Source: Sulfurospirillum multivorans DSM 12446
GTDB taxonomy: Bacteria; Campylobacterota; Campylobacteria; Campylobacterales; Sulfurospirillaceae
NCBI RefSeq assembly: GCF_000568815.1
Contig: NZ_CP007201.1
Span: forward strand, 186,001-250,000
Length of the DNA: 64,000 bases
Direction of reading: 5' to 3'
Shown: in pieces, positions 18,877-63,476 of the stretch
Position numbering within the stretch: the first letter of the stretch is position 1
How the letters are laid out: each line of letters starts with the position of its first letter
The notes under the pieces: generated by a model
Seen by the model: the letters and a program-made list of their open reading frames with translations, nothing else
The model's database searches: none
Told to the model about the DNA's origin: nothing
Made by a program: the position numbers and the translations under genes

Positions 18877-19018
18877 AACGTATTTTGTAAGAAGTAAAAA
18901 GCACCAAAGGTGCGTGGGCTTACTGCCGAAGTAAACCCAGTGTTAACGTAGTTTTTTCACAGAAACTTCGTTTTGAGCTTTGCTTTAAAAACGTGTTCAG
19001 AGTTCTGTAAGAACTCTA
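18872..19018. repeat. MITE-like structured repeat, copy 1
   Basis: About 147 bp between the convergent pflA 3' end and the aldehyde dehydrogenase gene. It aligns along its length with 39791-39945. Right end AGAGTTCT-GTA-AGAACTCT then TA resembles the IS5-like terminal repeat; the left end is more decayed. Inside are a GCACC/GGTGC hairpin, a TGGGCTTACT/AGTAAACCCA hairpin (18915-18939, one C-A mismatch) and a GTTTTT/AAAAAC pairing (18951-18956 with 18987-18992). It may also terminate both genes. Confidence 0.8.
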
Positions 19019-20437
19019 TTAAAACAATATAGACTTGATCTCGCAAAAAGCGTCCATGGAGTAGCGTCCACCCATTCTGCCTAGACCTGATTGTTTCATG
19101 CCACCAAAGGGAGGGTTTTTTGCCTTTGATGCAGCAGTATTGATCAGAACTCTTCCACTTCGTATCTGTTTAGCAAATTCATACGCCTTCGTTTCATCGC
19201 TTGAAAAGACATATGCAGAGAGCCCAAAAAGAGTGTCGTTTGCCATGCTGAGCGCTTCTTGCTCACTCTCGTAAGGTAGAACGCATAAAACGGGGCCAAA
19301 GATCTCTTCTTGCACGATTTTTAATGTTTGATCGTGACAGATAAAAACGGTTGGTTTGACAAAATAGCCTTTCTCAAATTCTTGAACCCTTCCAAGTCCA
19401 CCGCACAAAAGCTGCGCCCCTTCTTCAATACCACTTTTGATGTAGGCTTGTACCGTATTAAACTGGGTTTGGTTGATCATTGGACCAATCTTTGTCTCTT
19501 CGTTTTTTGGATCGCCGATTGTGAGTTTTTGGATCGTTTCGAGGAGTAGCCGTTTGACTTCGTTCAATTTTGCTTTGGGGACTAAAAGTCTACTGCCTGC
19601 ATGGCACGCTTGCCCGCTATTGCTATAGGCACTGCTTAAGACATGAGGAATCACTTTGGCTAAATTCGCATCTTCTAAAAGAATCGTAGGGGATTTTCCA
19701 CCGAGTTCGAGGGTCATACGTTTAATGGTTTTAGAGCAGTTTTCAAAAATTTTTTTGCCTGTTTTGGTACTTCCAATAAACGAAATAGCATTGACAAGCG
19801 GATGTTTTGTTAAAATTTCACCGACACTCTCACCGGTGCCATGAACGACATTGACAACACCTTTGGGAACATTGGCTCTGTGCAAACACTCTAAAAACGC
19901 TTGGGTTTCAAGGGCATTAAATTCACTGGGTTTAATCACCAGTGTACATCCAAGTGCGATGGCAGGAGCGATATTACTACATAAATGCGCTAGATTGGCA
20001 TTCCACGGAATGATCACGCCAATGACGCCCACGCCCTCTTTGATTGTTATGGAGTAGTCATCTTTTTTGATAAAATCGTAGCTTTTAAGCTCTTCTTTGA
20101 TCGCTAAAAAGAGGTTGATAGCATTTTTGGTTCGTCTGCGTGTCGTGGTAATCGTCGCGCCAAATTCTAAAACGGCTAAGTCAATCAGTCTCTCTTCGTG
20201 CTTGATCAGTTCATCATGAATATGCTGTAAAATCTCCATTCGTTCCTGAATCGACGTTTTTGAAAAGGATTCAAACGTCGTCGCTGCGCAATGAATGGCT
20301 TCGTCCATTTCAGAAGGCATGCTCAAATAAATTTGAGCGATTTCCTCTTCGGTTGTAGGATTTTTCAGCGTTAAGCTTTTGCTCGAATCAATTTTTTTAA
20401 ATTCGCCGTTGATGTAGTTTTGGTCGATTATTTTCAT
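19019..20437 (-). CDS. NAD(P)-dependent aldehyde dehydrogenase
   Basis: 472 residues of the aldehyde dehydrogenase superfamily. The catalytic Glu lies in LELGGKSP and the catalytic Cys in NSGQACHAGSR; the cofactor-binding GSTKTGKKIF and the C-terminal FGLSAYVFS and PPFGGMKQSGLGRMGG motifs are present. It oxidises an aldehyde to its acid; the substrate cannot be read from sequence. AAGG upstream of the ATG supports the start. It runs convergent to pflA and lies upstream of no obvious pathway partner. Confidence 0.9.
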   Translation of the reverse strand: MKIIDQNYINGEFKKIDSSKSLTLKNPTTEEEIAQIYLSMPSEMDEAIHCAATTFESFSKTSIQERMEILQHIHDELIKHEERLIDLAVLEFGATITTTRRRTKNAINLFLAIKEELKSYDFIKKDDYSITIKEGVGVIGVIIPWNANLAHLCSNIAPAIALGCTLVIKPSEFNALETQAFLECLHRANVPKGVVNVVHGTGESVGEILTKHPLVNAISFIGSTKTGKKIFENCSKTIKRMTLELGGKSPTILLEDANLAKVIPHVLSSAYSNSGQACHAGSRLLVPKAKLNEVKRLLLETIQKLTIGDPKNEETKIGPMINQTQFNTVQAYIKSGIEEGAQLLCGGLGRVQEFEKGYFVKPTVFICHDQTLKIVQEEIFGPVLCVLPYESEQEALSMANDTLFGLSAYVFSSDETKAYEFAKQIRSGRVLINTAASKAKNPPFGGMKQSGLGRMGGRYSMDAFCEIKSILF

Positions 20438-39793: not shown

Positions 39794-39945
39794 ACTTCTT
39801 GCAAAATACATTTTGCAAGAAGAAAAAGCACCAAAGGTGCGTGGGCATTGCGCCGAGCAAAACCCAGTGTTAGCGTAGTCTTTTCACAGAAACTTCGTTT
39901 TGAGCTTTGCTTTAAAGACGTGTAAAGAGTTCTGCAAGAACTCTA
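39791..39945. repeat. MITE-like structured repeat, copy 2
   Basis: About 151 bp flanked by TA, between convergent genes. Left end TAGACTTCTTGCAAAATACA and right end (reverse complement) TAGAGTTCTTGCAGAACTCT both resemble the IS5-like end TAGACATCTTGCAAAACTCA. Hairpins: CTTCTTGCAAAA/TTTTGCAAGAAG, GCACC/GGTGC, TGGGCATTGC/GCAAAACCCA (39842-39866) and GTCTTT/AAAGAC (39878-39883 with 39914-39919). Compared with copy 1, four pairs change on both strands of the stem. No reading frame of note inside. Confidence 0.85.
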
Positions 39946-39951
39946 ATAGCA

Positions 39952-56252: not shown

Positions 56253-56693
56253 ATGAACCCCGACCTTGTTTATCTAGCCCAAACAGAGACAACGGCGGGG
56301 TTCCTCTCCCAAAATGCTGAGGCACTCGCTCGCATCAAAAATCGCCCAAGCGGTAAATCTTTTCTCATCAGTGTCGATTCGCTGAGCACACTTCGTAGTT
56401 TTACCAGAGTTCCAAAAAGACATAAAAAAAGTGTTCGTAAATCCCAAAAAACAACCTTTGCTTATCCCTGTGGTTTAGCCATTCGTGTGGTTAAAGATGC
56501 AGAGCATTTACAGTTTTTACAAAAACTAAAATGGAGTTATTCTACTTCATCCAATCCCAGTGGAAAGGGCTTTGATGAAGTTTATGCCCAAGAGAAAGCT
56601 GACGTCATACTCTTTATATGTAAAGGTTTTTTCGAGTCCAAACCTTCTTCGATTTTGAAGCTTGGAAAAAGAAAAATGAGGAAATTACGGTAA
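56253..56693 (+). CDS. Short TsaC/Sua5/YrdC-like protein
   Basis: 146 residues. It starts PDLVYLAQTETTAGFLSQNA, the YrdC-type threonylcarbamoyl-AMP synthase N-terminus, and has SVDSL, VPKRHKKSVRKSQ and a short end, shorter than E. coli TsaC (190). Its 3' end (...KRKMRKLR) has a diverged duplicate 1 kb downstream, so the current C-terminus may have come with an insertion. Whether it makes t6A alone is not clear. Confidence 0.7.
   Translation: MNPDLVYLAQTETTAGFLSQNAEALARIKNRPSGKSFLISVDSLSTLRSFTRVPKRHKKSVRKSQKTTFAYPCGLAIRVVKDAEHLQFLQKLKWSYSTSSNPSGKGFDEVYAQEKADVILFICKGFFESKPSSILKLGKRKMRKLR
56673..56691 (+). repeat. 19-bp direct repeat, left copy
   Basis: AAAATGAGGAAATTACGGT occurs here at the 3' end of the TsaC-like gene and again at 57686-57704, on both sides of the inserted membrane-protein gene. 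Confidence 0.9.
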
Positions 56694-56739
56694 GATTTGA
56701 ATGGTGTTCTCTAACTAACTCAAAGTGAGAAGCAGATTT

Positions 56740-57648
56740 ATGCAAACGCAAAACGATCAAGTGCCCAATCATTTCGATGCGCATTTTATTTTCCAAGCGT
56801 TAAATCAAGATATTCATAAAGATAGATGGTCGATTCCTTTCATCATTCTTCTTTTTTTAGCTCTGACGCTTTTACTCTTTCCGATCACTTTTTTATATTT
56901 AGTGGGTATGGTAGCTTATGCCGATTTGCCAATTGTAAACCACAGTCTCCTCTCTACATTTAGTACTACAAAATTTGTTTTAGTGCCGTACTCTTTGGTC
57001 TTAATCTTTTACTTTTATGCAACCTATAACTCCATTCAAGATAAAAAACAGCATGCGTATGAAAAAGCACACTTTTTTCTTATCACCTCCTTGGTTGTAG
57101 GGTGTTTCCCTTTTATATGGTACGAGTATCGCTTAATATGGTATGTCATCTATGCACTGCTTTTTGGCGCAAGTATTTATTACCTTTCGATTGCTTATTT
57201 AGGTTATGAAGACAAAAAAGGCGATTTTACGCCCATGAATGAAAATAATTTTATCCGCAATGAAGACATGGGCATCTATGGATTTATCGACGATCCACTG
57301 AGCACATCCGATGATATAAACAGGGCAAAACTAACCGTTGCAACCGCTTCGGCTGGATTTACATTGATAGGATTTTTAACGAAAATGGCTTTGCATTCAT
57401 GGATCTATTTTATTGCAACGGGGAACAAAAAGTATATCTTAGAAGCAGTGCGTTTTTTAGATGCTCTCTTTGAAAATAAGATGAATCAACCGCGTACCAA
57501 TTTAAGTCATTATGCAAAAGCAATTTTGAGCTATAAAGGGTATATTGTCTTTGCATCAAGCGGTTTGGAAGTCACAGAAAAAAGCAAACAATTAGCAGAT
57601 AGGGCAAGAAAAATTACAAGAGAAAAAGAATTTTATGAAAACCATTGA
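56740..57648 (+). CDS. Membrane protein of unknown function (inserted gene)
   Basis: 302 residues from ATG 56740; an upstream GTG (56725) is possible. About four hydrophobic helices in the first half (residues ~30-60, 75-95, 115-135, 138-155), then a soluble region with one further apolar stretch (ASAGFTLIGFL). No family recognised. It is flanked by two versions of the TsaC-like 3' end, so it looks acquired. Confidence 0.75.
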   Translation: MQTQNDQVPNHFDAHFIFQALNQDIHKDRWSIPFIILLFLALTLLLFPITFLYLVGMVAYADLPIVNHSLLSTFSTTKFVLVPYSLVLIFYFYATYNSIQDKKQHAYEKAHFFLITSLVVGCFPFIWYEYRLIWYVIYALLFGASIYYLSIAYLGYEDKKGDFTPMNENNFIRNEDMGIYGFIDDPLSTSDDINRAKLTVATASAGFTLIGFLTKMALHSWIYFIATGNKKYILEAVRFLDALFENKMNQPRTNLSHYAKAILSYKGYIVFASSGLEVTEKSKQLADRARKITREKEFYENH

Positions 57649-57709
57649 AGCAAAAGCCTCTTTACATGTAAAGACGTTAAAAAAGAAAATGAGGAAATTA
57701 CGGTCATGA
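57644..57709 (+). pseudogene. Orphan 3' end of a TsaC-like gene
   Basis: Read in the frame of 57644, this stretch gives IEAKASLHVKTLKKKMRKLR then Ser and stop, matching the TsaC-like gene end FESKPSSILKLGKRKMRKLR in about 12 of 19 positions. Its TGA overlaps the ATG of the next gene (ATGA), as in a coupled operon, so it may be the native end left stranded by the insertion. Confidence 0.7.
57686..57704 (+). repeat. 19-bp direct repeat, right copy
   Basis: Second copy of AAAATGAGGAAATTACGGT, just before the ATG of the 207-residue gene; 1,013 bp from the first copy. Confidence 0.9.
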
Positions 57710-58329
57710 ATCTGCATAAGCTCAAAGAGGCAGAAGCCTATTTTTTGGAAATCTACCCACAAGGTTTTGAAGATGTAGGACTTTTGCCCATCATCAAACG
57801 ACACAATACCGCGAAAATCGGCGAACAAGTCCGTGAGCTGTTCGCCAAAGAGAACTTCACACAGCCCGAGATCATCTGCGAAAACTTCACCAAAATCGTC
57901 TCAAAATCAACCCTCATATCACTCTTTGAAAAACCAAAAGTAAGAGATATGATCAAATCGATGCGTATGGAGCGAAGAGATATGTTCGCTATTGGTCTGT
58001 ATGAAATGCTTTATGGTGATCAAAAAGAGGGATTTGACACTTTGGTAGAGGTGCTCTCATTTTATAGTTTGGCAAAATGGTCTATTGTAACACTCATTCC
58101 TTATTATTTCTACAGAGACAAAGAGTTTTTCATCAAGCCTACAACCACCAAAAATATCATCACATTTTTTGAGATAGAAGGGTTAGTCTATAAGCCAAGA
58201 CCGAGCTATGAATTTTACGTGCAGTATACAAAAGTTTTAGAATGTATGAGAGCGGAAGTTAGTGAGAAGATAAGTCCTAATGATAATGCTGGGTTTACGG
58301 GATTTTTGATGATGGCGATGGAAGAGTAA
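57706..58329 (+). CDS. Conserved helical protein of unknown function
   Basis: 207 residues, soluble, mostly helical by composition (LKEAEAYFLEIYPQGFED..., KVRDMIKSMRMERRDMFAIGLYEMLYG). No catalytic motif recognised. Probably once coupled to the TsaC-like gene through an ATGA overlap. Codon use looks like the core genes. Confidence 0.7.
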   Translation: MNLHKLKEAEAYFLEIYPQGFEDVGLLPIIKRHNTAKIGEQVRELFAKENFTQPEIICENFTKIVSKSTLISLFEKPKVRDMIKSMRMERRDMFAIGLYEMLYGDQKEGFDTLVEVLSFYSLAKWSIVTLIPYYFYRDKEFFIKPTTTKNIITFFEIEGLVYKPRPSYEFYVQYTKVLECMRAEVSEKISPNDNAGFTGFLMMAMEE

Positions 58330-58391: not shown

Positions 58392-59012
58392 ATGAGATGT
58401 TCTATCTTGATATTTATTCTTTTAGTGATTAGTAGCGAAAATATGTATAGTGCCAGTTTTGACTGCACAAATTCAAAAACAACAATTGAGAACATGATTT
58501 GCTCCGATGAACTCTTATCTGAGGTTGATGAACAATTAAACCATGAGTATCAAGATATTCTTAATAACTTGGAAATGGAAGAAGCTGAACAAATAAAATA
58601 TAAACAAATAGAATTAGAACGCAAAAAATGGTTAATAAAAAGAGATCAATGTAGAAATATAGAGTGTGTCTATGAGGCGTATATTGAGCTCGCATGCGAA
58701 GGAAATCGCATAGGTTCATATAGAGGAGCTGGTGAATGTTTTGATCTAAAACTTAATACTTTAGAGCGATACTTAAACGCGATAGAAGAAGAATACGTGA
58801 AAAAAATTCTTGTTCAATCTGAGAATCCAGAATATTTGAAAAGCGTAGTGGAAGATGAAAGAATCAAATGGAAGCAGTACCGTAACTCCTATTGTGAGCT
58901 TGTAGGTCAAGTTACAGGTGGTACGGACGGATGGAAAAGTGTTTGGACAGTTGATTGTAAAGTTGAAGAGACAAACAAACGGATAGATTGGTTAAAAAAT
59001 GGTTGGCACTAA
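58392..59012 (+). CDS. LprI/DUF1311-like secreted protein
   Basis: About 206 residues from ATG 58392, with a signal peptide (MRCSILIFILLVISSENMYSAS). The mature part starts FDCTNSKTTIENMICSDELLSEVDEQLNHEY, the LprI/DUF1311 motif (CxxxxxxxExxIC..LxxLDxxLxxxY). Six to eight cysteines suggest disulfides. Related proteins inhibit lysozyme; that is not shown here. The gene is AT-rich compared with its neighbours, suggesting transfer. Confidence 0.75.
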   Translation: MRCSILIFILLVISSENMYSASFDCTNSKTTIENMICSDELLSEVDEQLNHEYQDILNNLEMEEAEQIKYKQIELERKKWLIKRDQCRNIECVYEAYIELACEGNRIGSYRGAGECFDLKLNTLERYLNAIEEEYVKKILVQSENPEYLKSVVEDERIKWKQYRNSYCELVGQVTGGTDGWKSVWTVDCKVEETNKRIDWLKNGWH

Positions 59013-59046: not shown

Positions 59047-59691
59047 TTACATTTTATCCGTTAATTTACGAATCGCCAACGAAGCAAGCGTCAAACCAAA
59101 CGAAGCGGTCACACACATCAAACTTCCCATCTCTTTACAAATAGGCTTTTCATCCGAAAACACCGTTAAAAACGAGCCTTGAAAACCTGTTTTTTTAAGC
59201 CCATCTCTAAAGCCCTTTGCTAGCATATCGCCATACGTGTCCCAAATAGGGGCATAGTGAATTTTAGTTGGGTCAATTTTTTTCGCACCACCTGCGGAGC
59301 TTAGAAGTTTGGTGTGGGCTTTGTGCGCCACGGCGATTTTCGCTTCCATATCATCGATCGCGTCAATGACGATGTCGTAGGGTTCAAAGTCAAAACTCTC
59401 GACCCATTCAGGGGTAACTTTTGCTTCGATGGGTGTTACGCCTTTGTAAAGGCTTGCCATATGCAAGACTTTGACTTCGCCCACGGCTTCAGAGCCTAGC
59501 TGTCTGTTTTGGTTGGTCACATCGTAGGTATCAAAATCAACGATGGTGATGTCACTGATACCTGTGCGGTAGAGTGCGTCCAAACAAGGGCTTCCGACAC
59601 CGCCGATGCCTAAAAGAAGTATTTTTGCTTGTTGGAGTTTTTCAAAGTCTTCACCAAAAACGCGTCTAACACGTGAATAACGATCTTCCAT
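59047..59691 (-). CDS. tcdA: tRNA threonylcarbamoyladenosine dehydratase (TcdA/CsdL-like)
   Basis: 214 residues from ATG 59689-59691, coupled to surE by TAATG. E1-like ThiF fold: RYSRVRRVFGEDFEKLQQAKILLLGIGGVGSPCLDAL, IVDFDTYDVTNQNRQ, IDAIDDMEAKIAV. Cyclises t6A37 to ct6A in tRNA; the TsaC-like gene nearby is an earlier step of the same modification. Confidence 0.88.
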   Translation of the reverse strand: MEDRYSRVRRVFGEDFEKLQQAKILLLGIGGVGSPCLDALYRTGISDITIVDFDTYDVTNQNRQLGSEAVGEVKVLHMASLYKGVTPIEAKVTPEWVESFDFEPYDIVIDAIDDMEAKIAVAHKAHTKLLSSAGGAKKIDPTKIHYAPIWDTYGDMLAKGFRDGLKKTGFQGSFLTVFSDEKPICKEMGSLMCVTASFGLTLASLAIRKLTDKM

Positions 59692-60476
59692 TATTTTATC
59701 CATTCTTTTAACGTTTCAAGTTCATCGTGTGCGGTCATATCGAGTTTGATCGGGGTGATGGAGACGTAGCCATCATCAATGGCGCTGAGGTCACAGTCAT
59801 CTGCCTCACCTTTTTTCCACTCCAGCGTATGAACGCCCAGCCAGTAGTACTCTTCTCCTCGTGGATTTCGGTGCAGATGCGCGTCGTTGCCGTACATTCT
59901 ATAGCCTGCGCGTGTAATTTTGTAGCCTTTGCACTCTTCGGGTTTGAGCGGAGGAATATTGACATTTAAAAAGCGACGCTCTGCAAGAGGAAAAGTGCCG
60001 TCTAAAATGCGTTTAGCCAGATCGTACACGGTTTGCTCTGCGAGATCATAGCCGTGGGTGAGTTCAATGTTTTGAGGACCACCGGTGTAGACTTGGGAGA
60101 TGGCGATGGCGGGAACACCGTGCAAGGCTGCTTCCATTGCCGCACTCGCTGTTCCGCTATACGTGATGTCTTCGCCTAAATTGGAGCCTTTATTGATGCC
60201 ACTTACGATCAAATCAGGTTTTGACTCTCCCTCAAAAAGGGCGTTCAAGGAGAGATAAATACAGTCCGTGGGCGTGCCATCGTCAAGTTTGAAAAAATCA
60301 TCGCCTATGGCAACAAAACGAAGGGGACGTGTAAGAGTAAGTGAGTGTCCGCAGGCGGATTTTTCAGACGTGGGGGCTACAATGGTTACTTGCCCTAAAG
60401 GACGAAGTGCGCGAGCAAGGGCGTGAAGTCCAGGACTTTCAAAGCCATCATCGTTGGTAATTAAAATACGTTTCAT
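59691..60476 (-). CDS. surE: 5'-nucleotidase SurE
   Basis: 261 residues. Metal-binding ILITNDDGFESPGLHALA at the start (Asp-Asp), SGINKGSNLGEDITYSGTASAAMEA and PTDCIYLSLNAL. Stationary-phase survival nucleotidase in many bacteria. Confidence 0.95.
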   Translation of the reverse strand: MKRILITNDDGFESPGLHALARALRPLGQVTIVAPTSEKSACGHSLTLTRPLRFVAIGDDFFKLDDGTPTDCIYLSLNALFEGESKPDLIVSGINKGSNLGEDITYSGTASAAMEAALHGVPAIAISQVYTGGPQNIELTHGYDLAEQTVYDLAKRILDGTFPLAERRFLNVNIPPLKPEECKGYKITRAGYRMYGNDAHLHRNPRGEEYYWLGVHTLEWKKGEADDCDLSAIDDGYVSITPIKLDMTAHDELETLKEWIK

Positions 60477-62363: not shown

Positions 62364-63476
62364 GTGTTAAAAAAAGGTGAAATTAAAATGATAAAGAAGT
62401 TTTTAGCTGAGGGTTTGAGTAAGAGTGCCATTGCACGAAAGTTAGGTATTTCAAGAGATACCGTAAGGCGTTACGCCAATCTTCCTGATGATTATGTTCC
62501 TCATATTAATCGACCTCCTGTCATCAATAGTGTTGATCCTTATCTACCGCATATTGCCAAGATGTTAGAGATGGCAGAAGCGACGAAAAGTGAAATCCCT
62601 TTAACGGTTATTTATGAAGAGATTAAGAAGCTAGGCTATGAGGGAAGTTTGCGTTGGTTGCAGCAAGTTATCCAAAGATATGAGTTAAGAAGTCGAGCCA
62701 AATTGGATGAACCTATCATTCGCTTTGAAACCAAACCTGCCCAACAGATGCAAGTCGATTGGATAGAGTTTCCAAAGGATAATTTATCAGCATTTGTGGC
62801 AACGATGGGATATTCTAGGGCTTCGTATGTGGAATATGTCAATAATGAGAAGATAGAGACGCTCATTGGATGCCATATGAATGCCTTTAGCTACTTTGGA
62901 GGTGTTCCAACGGAGTGTTTGTATGACAATATGAAAACGGTTATTTTAGGACGGAATAGTTATGGCAGAGGCAAACATAAACTCAATCCACTCTTTGAGG
63001 ACTTTGCCAAACACTGTGGCTTTAGCATCAAAGTCTGCAAACCCTACCGTGCCAAGACCAAAGGAAAAGTAGAGAGATTTAACCATTATCTACGGTATAA
63101 CTTTCATAATGGATTGATAGTGAGACTTTCTATGAAGCATTATGCATTAACGCTGGATAATGCGAATGCAGAAGTGCTCAAATGGTTGGATAATACCGCC
63201 AATAAACGCATCCACCAAACAACATTACAGATACCATTTGAATTATTAGCACAAGAGCAGCTGCAACTGCGTCCTGTGCCTAAAGCCTATCAAGGAATCC
63301 ACCCTAAAGCTTTGATTGAAAGTGTAGCTAAAAAATATACGCCAATCAATTCATACCATGACATCGATAAGCTCTACATTCCCCATCGTGACATTCAATG
63401 CTACGATGAGTTTATCCCGATCGTTGCCAATATTATTCTTCCAGTTGGATTATACGGTGGTGCATTATGGAATTAA
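62364..63476 (+). CDS. istA: IS21-family transposase IstA
   Basis: 370 residues from GTG 62364, with AAAGGAG just upstream. N-terminal helix-turn-helix (LSKSAIARKLGISRDTVRRY, ~14-33), then an integrase-type DDE core: QMQVDWIEF (Asp), CLYDNMKTVILG (Asp) and TKGKVERFNHYLR (Glu). Stop overlaps istB by 10 bp. Confidence 0.93.
   Translation: MLKKGEIKMIKKFLAEGLSKSAIARKLGISRDTVRRYANLPDDYVPHINRPPVINSVDPYLPHIAKMLEMAEATKSEIPLTVIYEEIKKLGYEGSLRWLQQVIQRYELRSRAKLDEPIIRFETKPAQQMQVDWIEFPKDNLSAFVATMGYSRASYVEYVNNEKIETLIGCHMNAFSYFGGVPTECLYDNMKTVILGRNSYGRGKHKLNPLFEDFAKHCGFSIKVCKPYRAKTKGKVERFNHYLRYNFHNGLIVRLSMKHYALTLDNANAEVLKWLDNTANKRIHQTTLQIPFELLAQEQLQLRPVPKAYQGIHPKALIESVAKKYTPINSYHDIDKLYIPHRDIQCYDEFIPIVANIILPVGLYGGALWN

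Follow-up and report, generated by a model that had tools for sequence, protein, structure and literature searches.

The window, that is, the whole 64-kb stretch of DNA analysed here (positions 186001-250000 of one contig of 3,175,729 bases), contains a TsaC-like gene, a membrane-protein gene and a gene of 207 residues in succession. They are called tsaC, mem and 207 here, and the window genome is G000. The features of the locus are the following, in window positions.

56253-56693, plus strand: intact TsaC-like gene with a Sua5/YciO/YrdC domain (Pfam PF01300), with a gene match in 23 of 24 same-genus genomes
56666-56691, plus strand: left copy of the repeated tsaC 3' end, from the repeat search
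56740-57648, plus strand: membrane-protein gene, 302 aa from ATG, or 307 aa from the GTG at 56725
57601-57650, plus strand: scar consisting of a brnT 3' end and a brnA start (MKTIE), from the alignment with G019
57635-57709, plus strand: 24-codon fused frame, MKTIE (BrnA start) followed by AKASLHVKTLKKKMRKLRS (tsaC tail), read from the sequence
57644-57650, plus strand: ATTGAAG deletion joint, where brnA is lost and the sequence switches to the tsaC remnant; the word occurs twice in the G019 interval
57644-57705, plus strand: displaced, decayed tsaC 3' end in which the GAGG that serves as start signal for 207 is preserved, from the repeat and alignments
57706-58329, plus strand: conserved 207-residue gene with no assigned family, directly behind tsaC in empty loci
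58395-59012, plus strand: accessory gene with an LprI domain (PF07007, 1.2e-13), between the 207 gene and thiF
59047-59703, minus strand: gene that we take to be ThiF-like, the convergent far border of the variable interval

The TsaC-like protein passes the PF01300 (Sua5_yciO_yrdC) cut-off, with 34.3 bits against 25.1, and falls under the equivalog cut-off for threonylcarbamoyladenylate synthase (TIGR00057, 31.2 bits against 123.2). The closest TsaC-like genes on named contigs are those of Sulfurospirillum. The membrane protein gave no family over cut-off in the Pfam scan, and the LprI-domain gene had no homologue among the matches listed for the same-genus loci (in part for G010-G012). Outside the tsaC-thiF interval, an open frame at 62364-63476 is presumably an IS21-type transposase.

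The repeated 3' end and the ancestral junction

The initial annotation described two diverged versions of one C-terminus on either side of mem, with an exact 19-bp direct repeat 1,013 bp apart. The coordinates were reproduced: the direct repeat lies at 56666-56691 and 57679-57704, covers 26 nt at 92% identity with a spacing of 1013, and includes the 19-bp exact core. When AATGAGGAAATTACGGT, a 17-base core of the repeat, was searched with up to two mismatches, only two sites were found in the 3,175,729-bp genome, both of them here. Moreover, in a comparison of the window with itself (E<=0.01), the repeat was the sole self-match besides a 140-bp intergenic pair. The upstream 110 nt were also aligned locally with tsaC tails, using 2000 dinucleotide shuffles as the null. 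For G000 and two further loci, G019 and G006a, none of the 2000 shuffles matched the score, either against the own tail or against the tail of G014, and for G002 the score was reached by 1/2000 shuffles against its own tail and by 0/2000 against that of G014. Genome-wide uniqueness, shuffles and self-comparison dismiss a chance similarity of the two tails, and the view that versions of one C-terminus flank mem holds.

Two alignments are possible upstream of the last ~26 nt, one in frame and without gaps, the other gapped and anchored by the palindrome TTTACATGTAAA; because they compete, the G000 remnant taken alone is firm only for its last ~26 nt and its position. With a tsaC-tail profile it gave a weak match (E 0.32), compared with E 0.0028 for G019 and 0.0015 for G006a. 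As it misses E<=0.01 by itself, its assignment rests on position and on identity with the G019 remnant. The frame of the remnant ends in ...MRKLRS with a stop at 57707-57709, and its overlap with the 207 start is the ATGA that had been pointed out initially.

Among the 24 same-genus genomes searched (our own included), a TsaC-like gene was found in 23, and G018 (77% complete) was without it. Because the fragmented bin G006 holds three versions of the locus, these 23 genomes give 25 loci. The tsaC stop overlaps the 207 start as TAATG at nine of them (eight genomes), the two genes are set apart by inserts of 674 to 3767 bases at seven, and at nine, including G001, where the contig ends, the stretch gave no 207 gene. 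The direct tsaC-207 order that the initial annotation looked for in relatives is thus present in 9/25 loci; the relatives do not all carry the membrane gene with a single conserved 3' end, as nine loci adjoin directly. These comparisons support tsaC directly followed by the 207 gene as the probable ancestral state.

The part of tsaC that is repeated is exactly the part that lies directly before 207 at these nine of the 25 loci. The 3' end of the TsaC-like gene includes a Shine-Dalgarno-like GAGG, ancestral for the 207 gene, and GAGG or AAGGA occurs in the last tsaC codons at 9/9 adjacent loci, 4/7 loci with an insert and 1/9 loci without the 207 gene. We infer that the end of tsaC also provides the ribosome-binding site for 207; this would account for the conservation of the final ~26 nt in a displaced copy whose remainder decays. 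The second copy is an end left from an older neighbour. The right-hand tail is a decaying leftover that carries the start signal of 207, not a restored or functional 3' end. The locus had been likened to islands that restore the 3' end of the gene they enter, here without an integrase. A Pfam scan of four window proteins and nine proteins from relatives gave no integrase and no transposase, which agrees with the second half of this proposal, but the first half falls with the nature of the tail.

At one of the G006 loci (G006c; L060, minus strand, 945-1567), the 207 gene is broken by an in-frame stop and a frameshift. A putative second copy of the gene at this locus is really the one frame-disrupted gene.

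The brnTA insert and the membrane-protein gene

Of the relatives examined, G019 is nearest to the window, with 92.9% identity for the 207 gene and 93.2% for tsaC. Its slot between these two genes is occupied by BrnT (PF04365, 1.5e-22) and BrnA (PF14384, 2.1e-9), and the tsaC-tail remnant that follows brnTA is identical to that of the window over 73 nt (57644-57716, the last 11 belonging to the 207 gene). Unrelated sites in G017 (474/569) and G021 (471/569) carry this cassette too, from the promoter region through to the brnA stop, with about 83% identity; in both, brnT ends in EKEFYENH and brnA starts within the last brnT codons. Around the G019 cassette, no inverted terminal repeats of the insertion-sequence type were recognised, and only the palindrome TTTACATGTAAA forms a long-range inverted pair at the borders.

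In the window, mem ends in RARKITREKEFYENH, and 50 bases (57601-57650) align, in G019, to the end of brnT and the beginning of brnA, with an exact 23-bp block (57628-57650) shared with its brnT/brnA junction. The alignment scores 59, against 32 for the best of 3562 background windows. The last ~14 residues of mem are derived from BrnT and the first five codons of brnA are kept; the BrnT-derived end is absent from the mem homologues of G005, G015 and G022. The type II toxin-antitoxin pair BrnT/BrnA is intact in G019, whereas the window locus is without complete brnT and brnA and keeps only end and start fragments within 57601-57650. Elsewhere in G000 there are two more BrnT-like genes, at 1277097-1277363 and 1136385-1136636 (40% and 35% against the G019 toxin).

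In the 690-bp interval of G019, the word ATTGAAG has exactly two occurrences, one where brnA starts and one in the remnant, and the identity between the window and G019 picks up again at 57644. The arrangement in G006a is the same as in the window. The simplest reading would be that brnA was deleted between the two ATTGAAG words and that the last brnT codons were fused in frame to mem. Given the brnT/brnA ends within the mem 3' end and the ATTGAAG joint, it is therefore likely that brnTA came first and that mem replaced it later. Of the original suggestion, the displaced 3' end without an integrase holds, but the one-gene insertion does not, given the earlier brnTA insert that mem replaced. 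The resulting 24-codon frame overlaps both the mem stop and the 207 start. Its counterpart is also open in G006a, and in G019 no start codon for it was seen by eye.

As to the origin of mem, homologues at 43-44% identity lie directly behind tsaC in three other genomes, at loci with no 207 gene. The closest relatives outside G006 are 42-44% identical, and no donor was found. Elsewhere in the order (298 genomes searched), the nearest relative is about 26% identical (G257), with no tsaC beside it in the stretch fetched. The idea of mem as a phage or plasmid passenger was rejected, with zero matches in either collection at E<=1e-5.

The variable interval and its displaced tails

The tsaC-207 site belongs to a larger interval of variable content that runs from tsaC to thiF, with two conserved blocks, carB-tsaC and thiF-surE, converging on it. 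Within the interval, gene content also varies at another junction, that of 207 and thiF. Behind tsaC there are at least five kinds of content (25 loci, 23 genomes), different genes between the same conserved flanks, including brnTA, mem, a TetR regulator and others. The cargo of relatives presumably also comprises a nitrogenase-cofactor-like and ParA-like gene cluster, as well as what we take to be an EamA-like transporter. One HNH endonuclease was found, at the 207-thiF junction of G023.

The 25 intervals (75,671 bases) were searched at E<=0.01 with one profile for the 3' end of tsaC and one for that of thiF. For tsaC, displaced tails came up in G017 (63.1 bits), G002 (22.5 bits), G006a and G019. 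For thiF, they came up in G006a (169.3 bits) and G004 (120.1 bits); a further thiF match is the native, frame-disrupted thiF of G003. At the same threshold, neither the reversed intervals nor a carB-tail profile gave any match. The extent of the remnants varies: that of G017 is without the last ~50 nt, and that of G002 covers ~95 profile positions. In G009, G010 and G011, three of the seven loci with an insert, no tsaC remnant was detected before 207. The ThiF-like displaced 3' ends of G006a (L054) and G004 (L058), on the minus strand, mirror the tsaC tails.

Three of these tails fit the allele of another species better than the intact copy next to them. The thiF remnant of G006a matches the G002 allele at 180/210 positions and its own at 134/175, the tsaC remnant of G017 matches G001 at 87/99 and its own at 78/98, and that of G002 matches G006a at 64/73 and its own at 56/72. 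The thiF remnant of G004 does not discriminate between alleles (128/147 to G011, 124/148 to its own), and the tsaC remnants of G000, G019 and G006a are about equally close to their own tail and to others. The foreign-allele tails point to recombination between species and speak against both a local duplication and a fixed attachment site. The uneven gene identities of G009 to G000 (84.7% for 207, 67.9% for thiF and 79.8% for the carB end) point in the same direction. The ComEC and DprA families are present; because ComEC was also found in 10 and DprA in 11 of the 14 control genomes, competence is an assumption here.

Probable one-sided imports and their precedents

These genomes show directly the empty junction, the junction filled by brnTA, the scar with its joint, and additional displaced tails. 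From their anatomy we infer a recombination route, an order for mem entry and brnA loss, and a probable translational coupling. We propose, with a probability of about 0.75, that the locus is a layered scar in a gene-exchange hotspot that works without an integrase, in which the ancestral tsaC-207 junction was entered by brnTA and brnTA was then replaced by mem. At the outset, tsaC would overlap 207 (TAATG), its last codons doubling as the ribosome-binding site of 207. DNA bearing brnTA would then be taken in behind tsaC; at one side the probable route is homologous recombination in tsaC, at the other a non-homologous join within the resident tsaC tail. The product would be a second tsaC 3' end of ~60-75 nt before 207, which would decay except for the start signal. 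Later, mem would replace brnT up to its last ~14 codons, which would turn into the mem C-terminus, and brnA would be deleted across the 7-bp repeat ATTGAAG. The remaining 24-codon fused frame probably couples translation from mem to 207, as tsaC would have done before. The direction of the tail may be read two ways, as an old tail left behind or as a tail imported together with the 207 block. More generally, incoming DNA would pair with tsaC or thiF and its other end would join with no or minimal homology, so that a complete core gene would be kept and a stub of the other allele left beyond the cargo. Recurrent homologous import with one sloppy end would explain the interval.

Other routes to the same gene order have to be weighed. 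A non-replicating circle holding a tsaC 3' fragment and cargo, integrated by a single crossover in tsaC, yields the same succession of intact gene, cargo and displaced tail. A model of this kind is put forward for rhs tips (PMC2935791), and in E. coli linear DNA may circularise and integrate by a single crossover (PMC3240628). Such a circle must form first, however, and by itself it leaves the second step, the mem-brnT join without visible homology, unexplained; we hold it to be rather unlikely. A tandem duplication or slippage of the tsaC tail within one genome, followed by insertion of a gene between the copies, agrees with remnants in G000, G006a and G019 that are about as close to their own tail as to others, but those of G002, G017 and G006a (thiF) are closer to the allele of another species, and we give this route little credit.

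The direct repeat at both borders, with its left copy intact, and the several different cargos at one junction would also suit an integrase-dependent or cassette-like element whose att site is the restored tsaC 3' end, the integrase acting in trans or having been lost. Yet neither an integrase nor a transposase was found among the scanned proteins of the window and relatives, the remnants differ in length and in the part kept and come from two genes (tsaC and thiF), three of them carry the allele of another species, and three of the seven inserts are without the repeat. One fixed attachment core common to all inserts was not found. With no integrase among the scanned proteins, variable remnants and two genes involved, an integrase island was dropped as very improbable. 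Finally, mem may have come first, with BrnTA as a later replacement in G019, and a mem homologue does lie behind tsaC in three other genomes. Against this order, the brnT/brnA junction in the mem 3' end is native to brnTA cassettes elsewhere and its sequence is absent from other mem homologues; we hold this order to be very improbable.

The proposed layered scar of one-sided imports has close precedents. Hotspots without mobile elements, accounted for by recombination in core genes on their flanks, are established (PMC5635113), and the minimal mobile elements of Neisseria are a named precedent (PMC2649163). As in these systems (PMC5635113), varied small gene sets lie here between the same conserved flanks, and no mobility gene was recognised among the proteins scanned. 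Exchange may proceed via the flanking core genes. Unlike in the Neisseria elements, the flanks here leave short displaced 3' ends on both sides, which record successive exchanges, and donors and competence are assumed. In the C-terminal displacement of rhs genes (PMC2935791), a new 3' part is joined and the old one is left behind the cargo, as seen here. In contrast to rhs, the tsaC-like tail encodes the same C-terminus before and after, so that the tail is a by-product that brings no gain; alternative non-homologous C-termini are absent from the locus, whose two tails represent a single C-terminus in two versions. In homology-facilitated illegitimate recombination, one end is homologous and the other non-homologous (PMC3240628), and T6SS effector swaps are reported in which a conserved gene has the breakpoint at its 3' end (PMC11751169). 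The same traits would recur here, with the difference that they are read from anatomy alone. The locus is a well-recorded instance of a known process, and not a new mobile element. A literature search gave no description of it among the titles and abstract openings listed, though a published one may exist.

Hotspots without mobile elements are usually a statistical inference; here single exchanges are readable base by base, from the empty site through the toxin-antitoxin insert and its replacement to an exact 7-bp deletion joint. Displaced 3' ends, some with a foreign allele, offer a simple searchable mark of one-sided imports, countable across genomes. In addition, a start signal within the last codons of the upstream gene limits which part of a scar survives.

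There are 11 copies of the 12-bp palindrome TTTACATGTAAA in the 64 kb, where 0.00 are expected (window positions 1566, 4909, 5124, 7803, 7839, 23409, 27557, 32388, 43883, 54633 and 57661), and the locus stretches of the genus, 168 kb in all, have 70, well over every other 12-mer palindrome. Most relatives have it in their tsaC tail, and it also lies in the displaced tails of G000, G006a, G019 and G002. Presumably, it resembles the HIP1-like over-represented palindromes. That it acts in recombination or uptake as a signal guiding foreign genes to the 3' ends of certain core genes seems very doubtful to us; if real, such a role would amount to an integrase-free insertion route that restores gene tails. 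The 140-bp intergenic pair met in the self-comparison of the window lies at 18882-19021 and 39810-39948; its copies are 88.6% identical, and each is located between two convergent genes.
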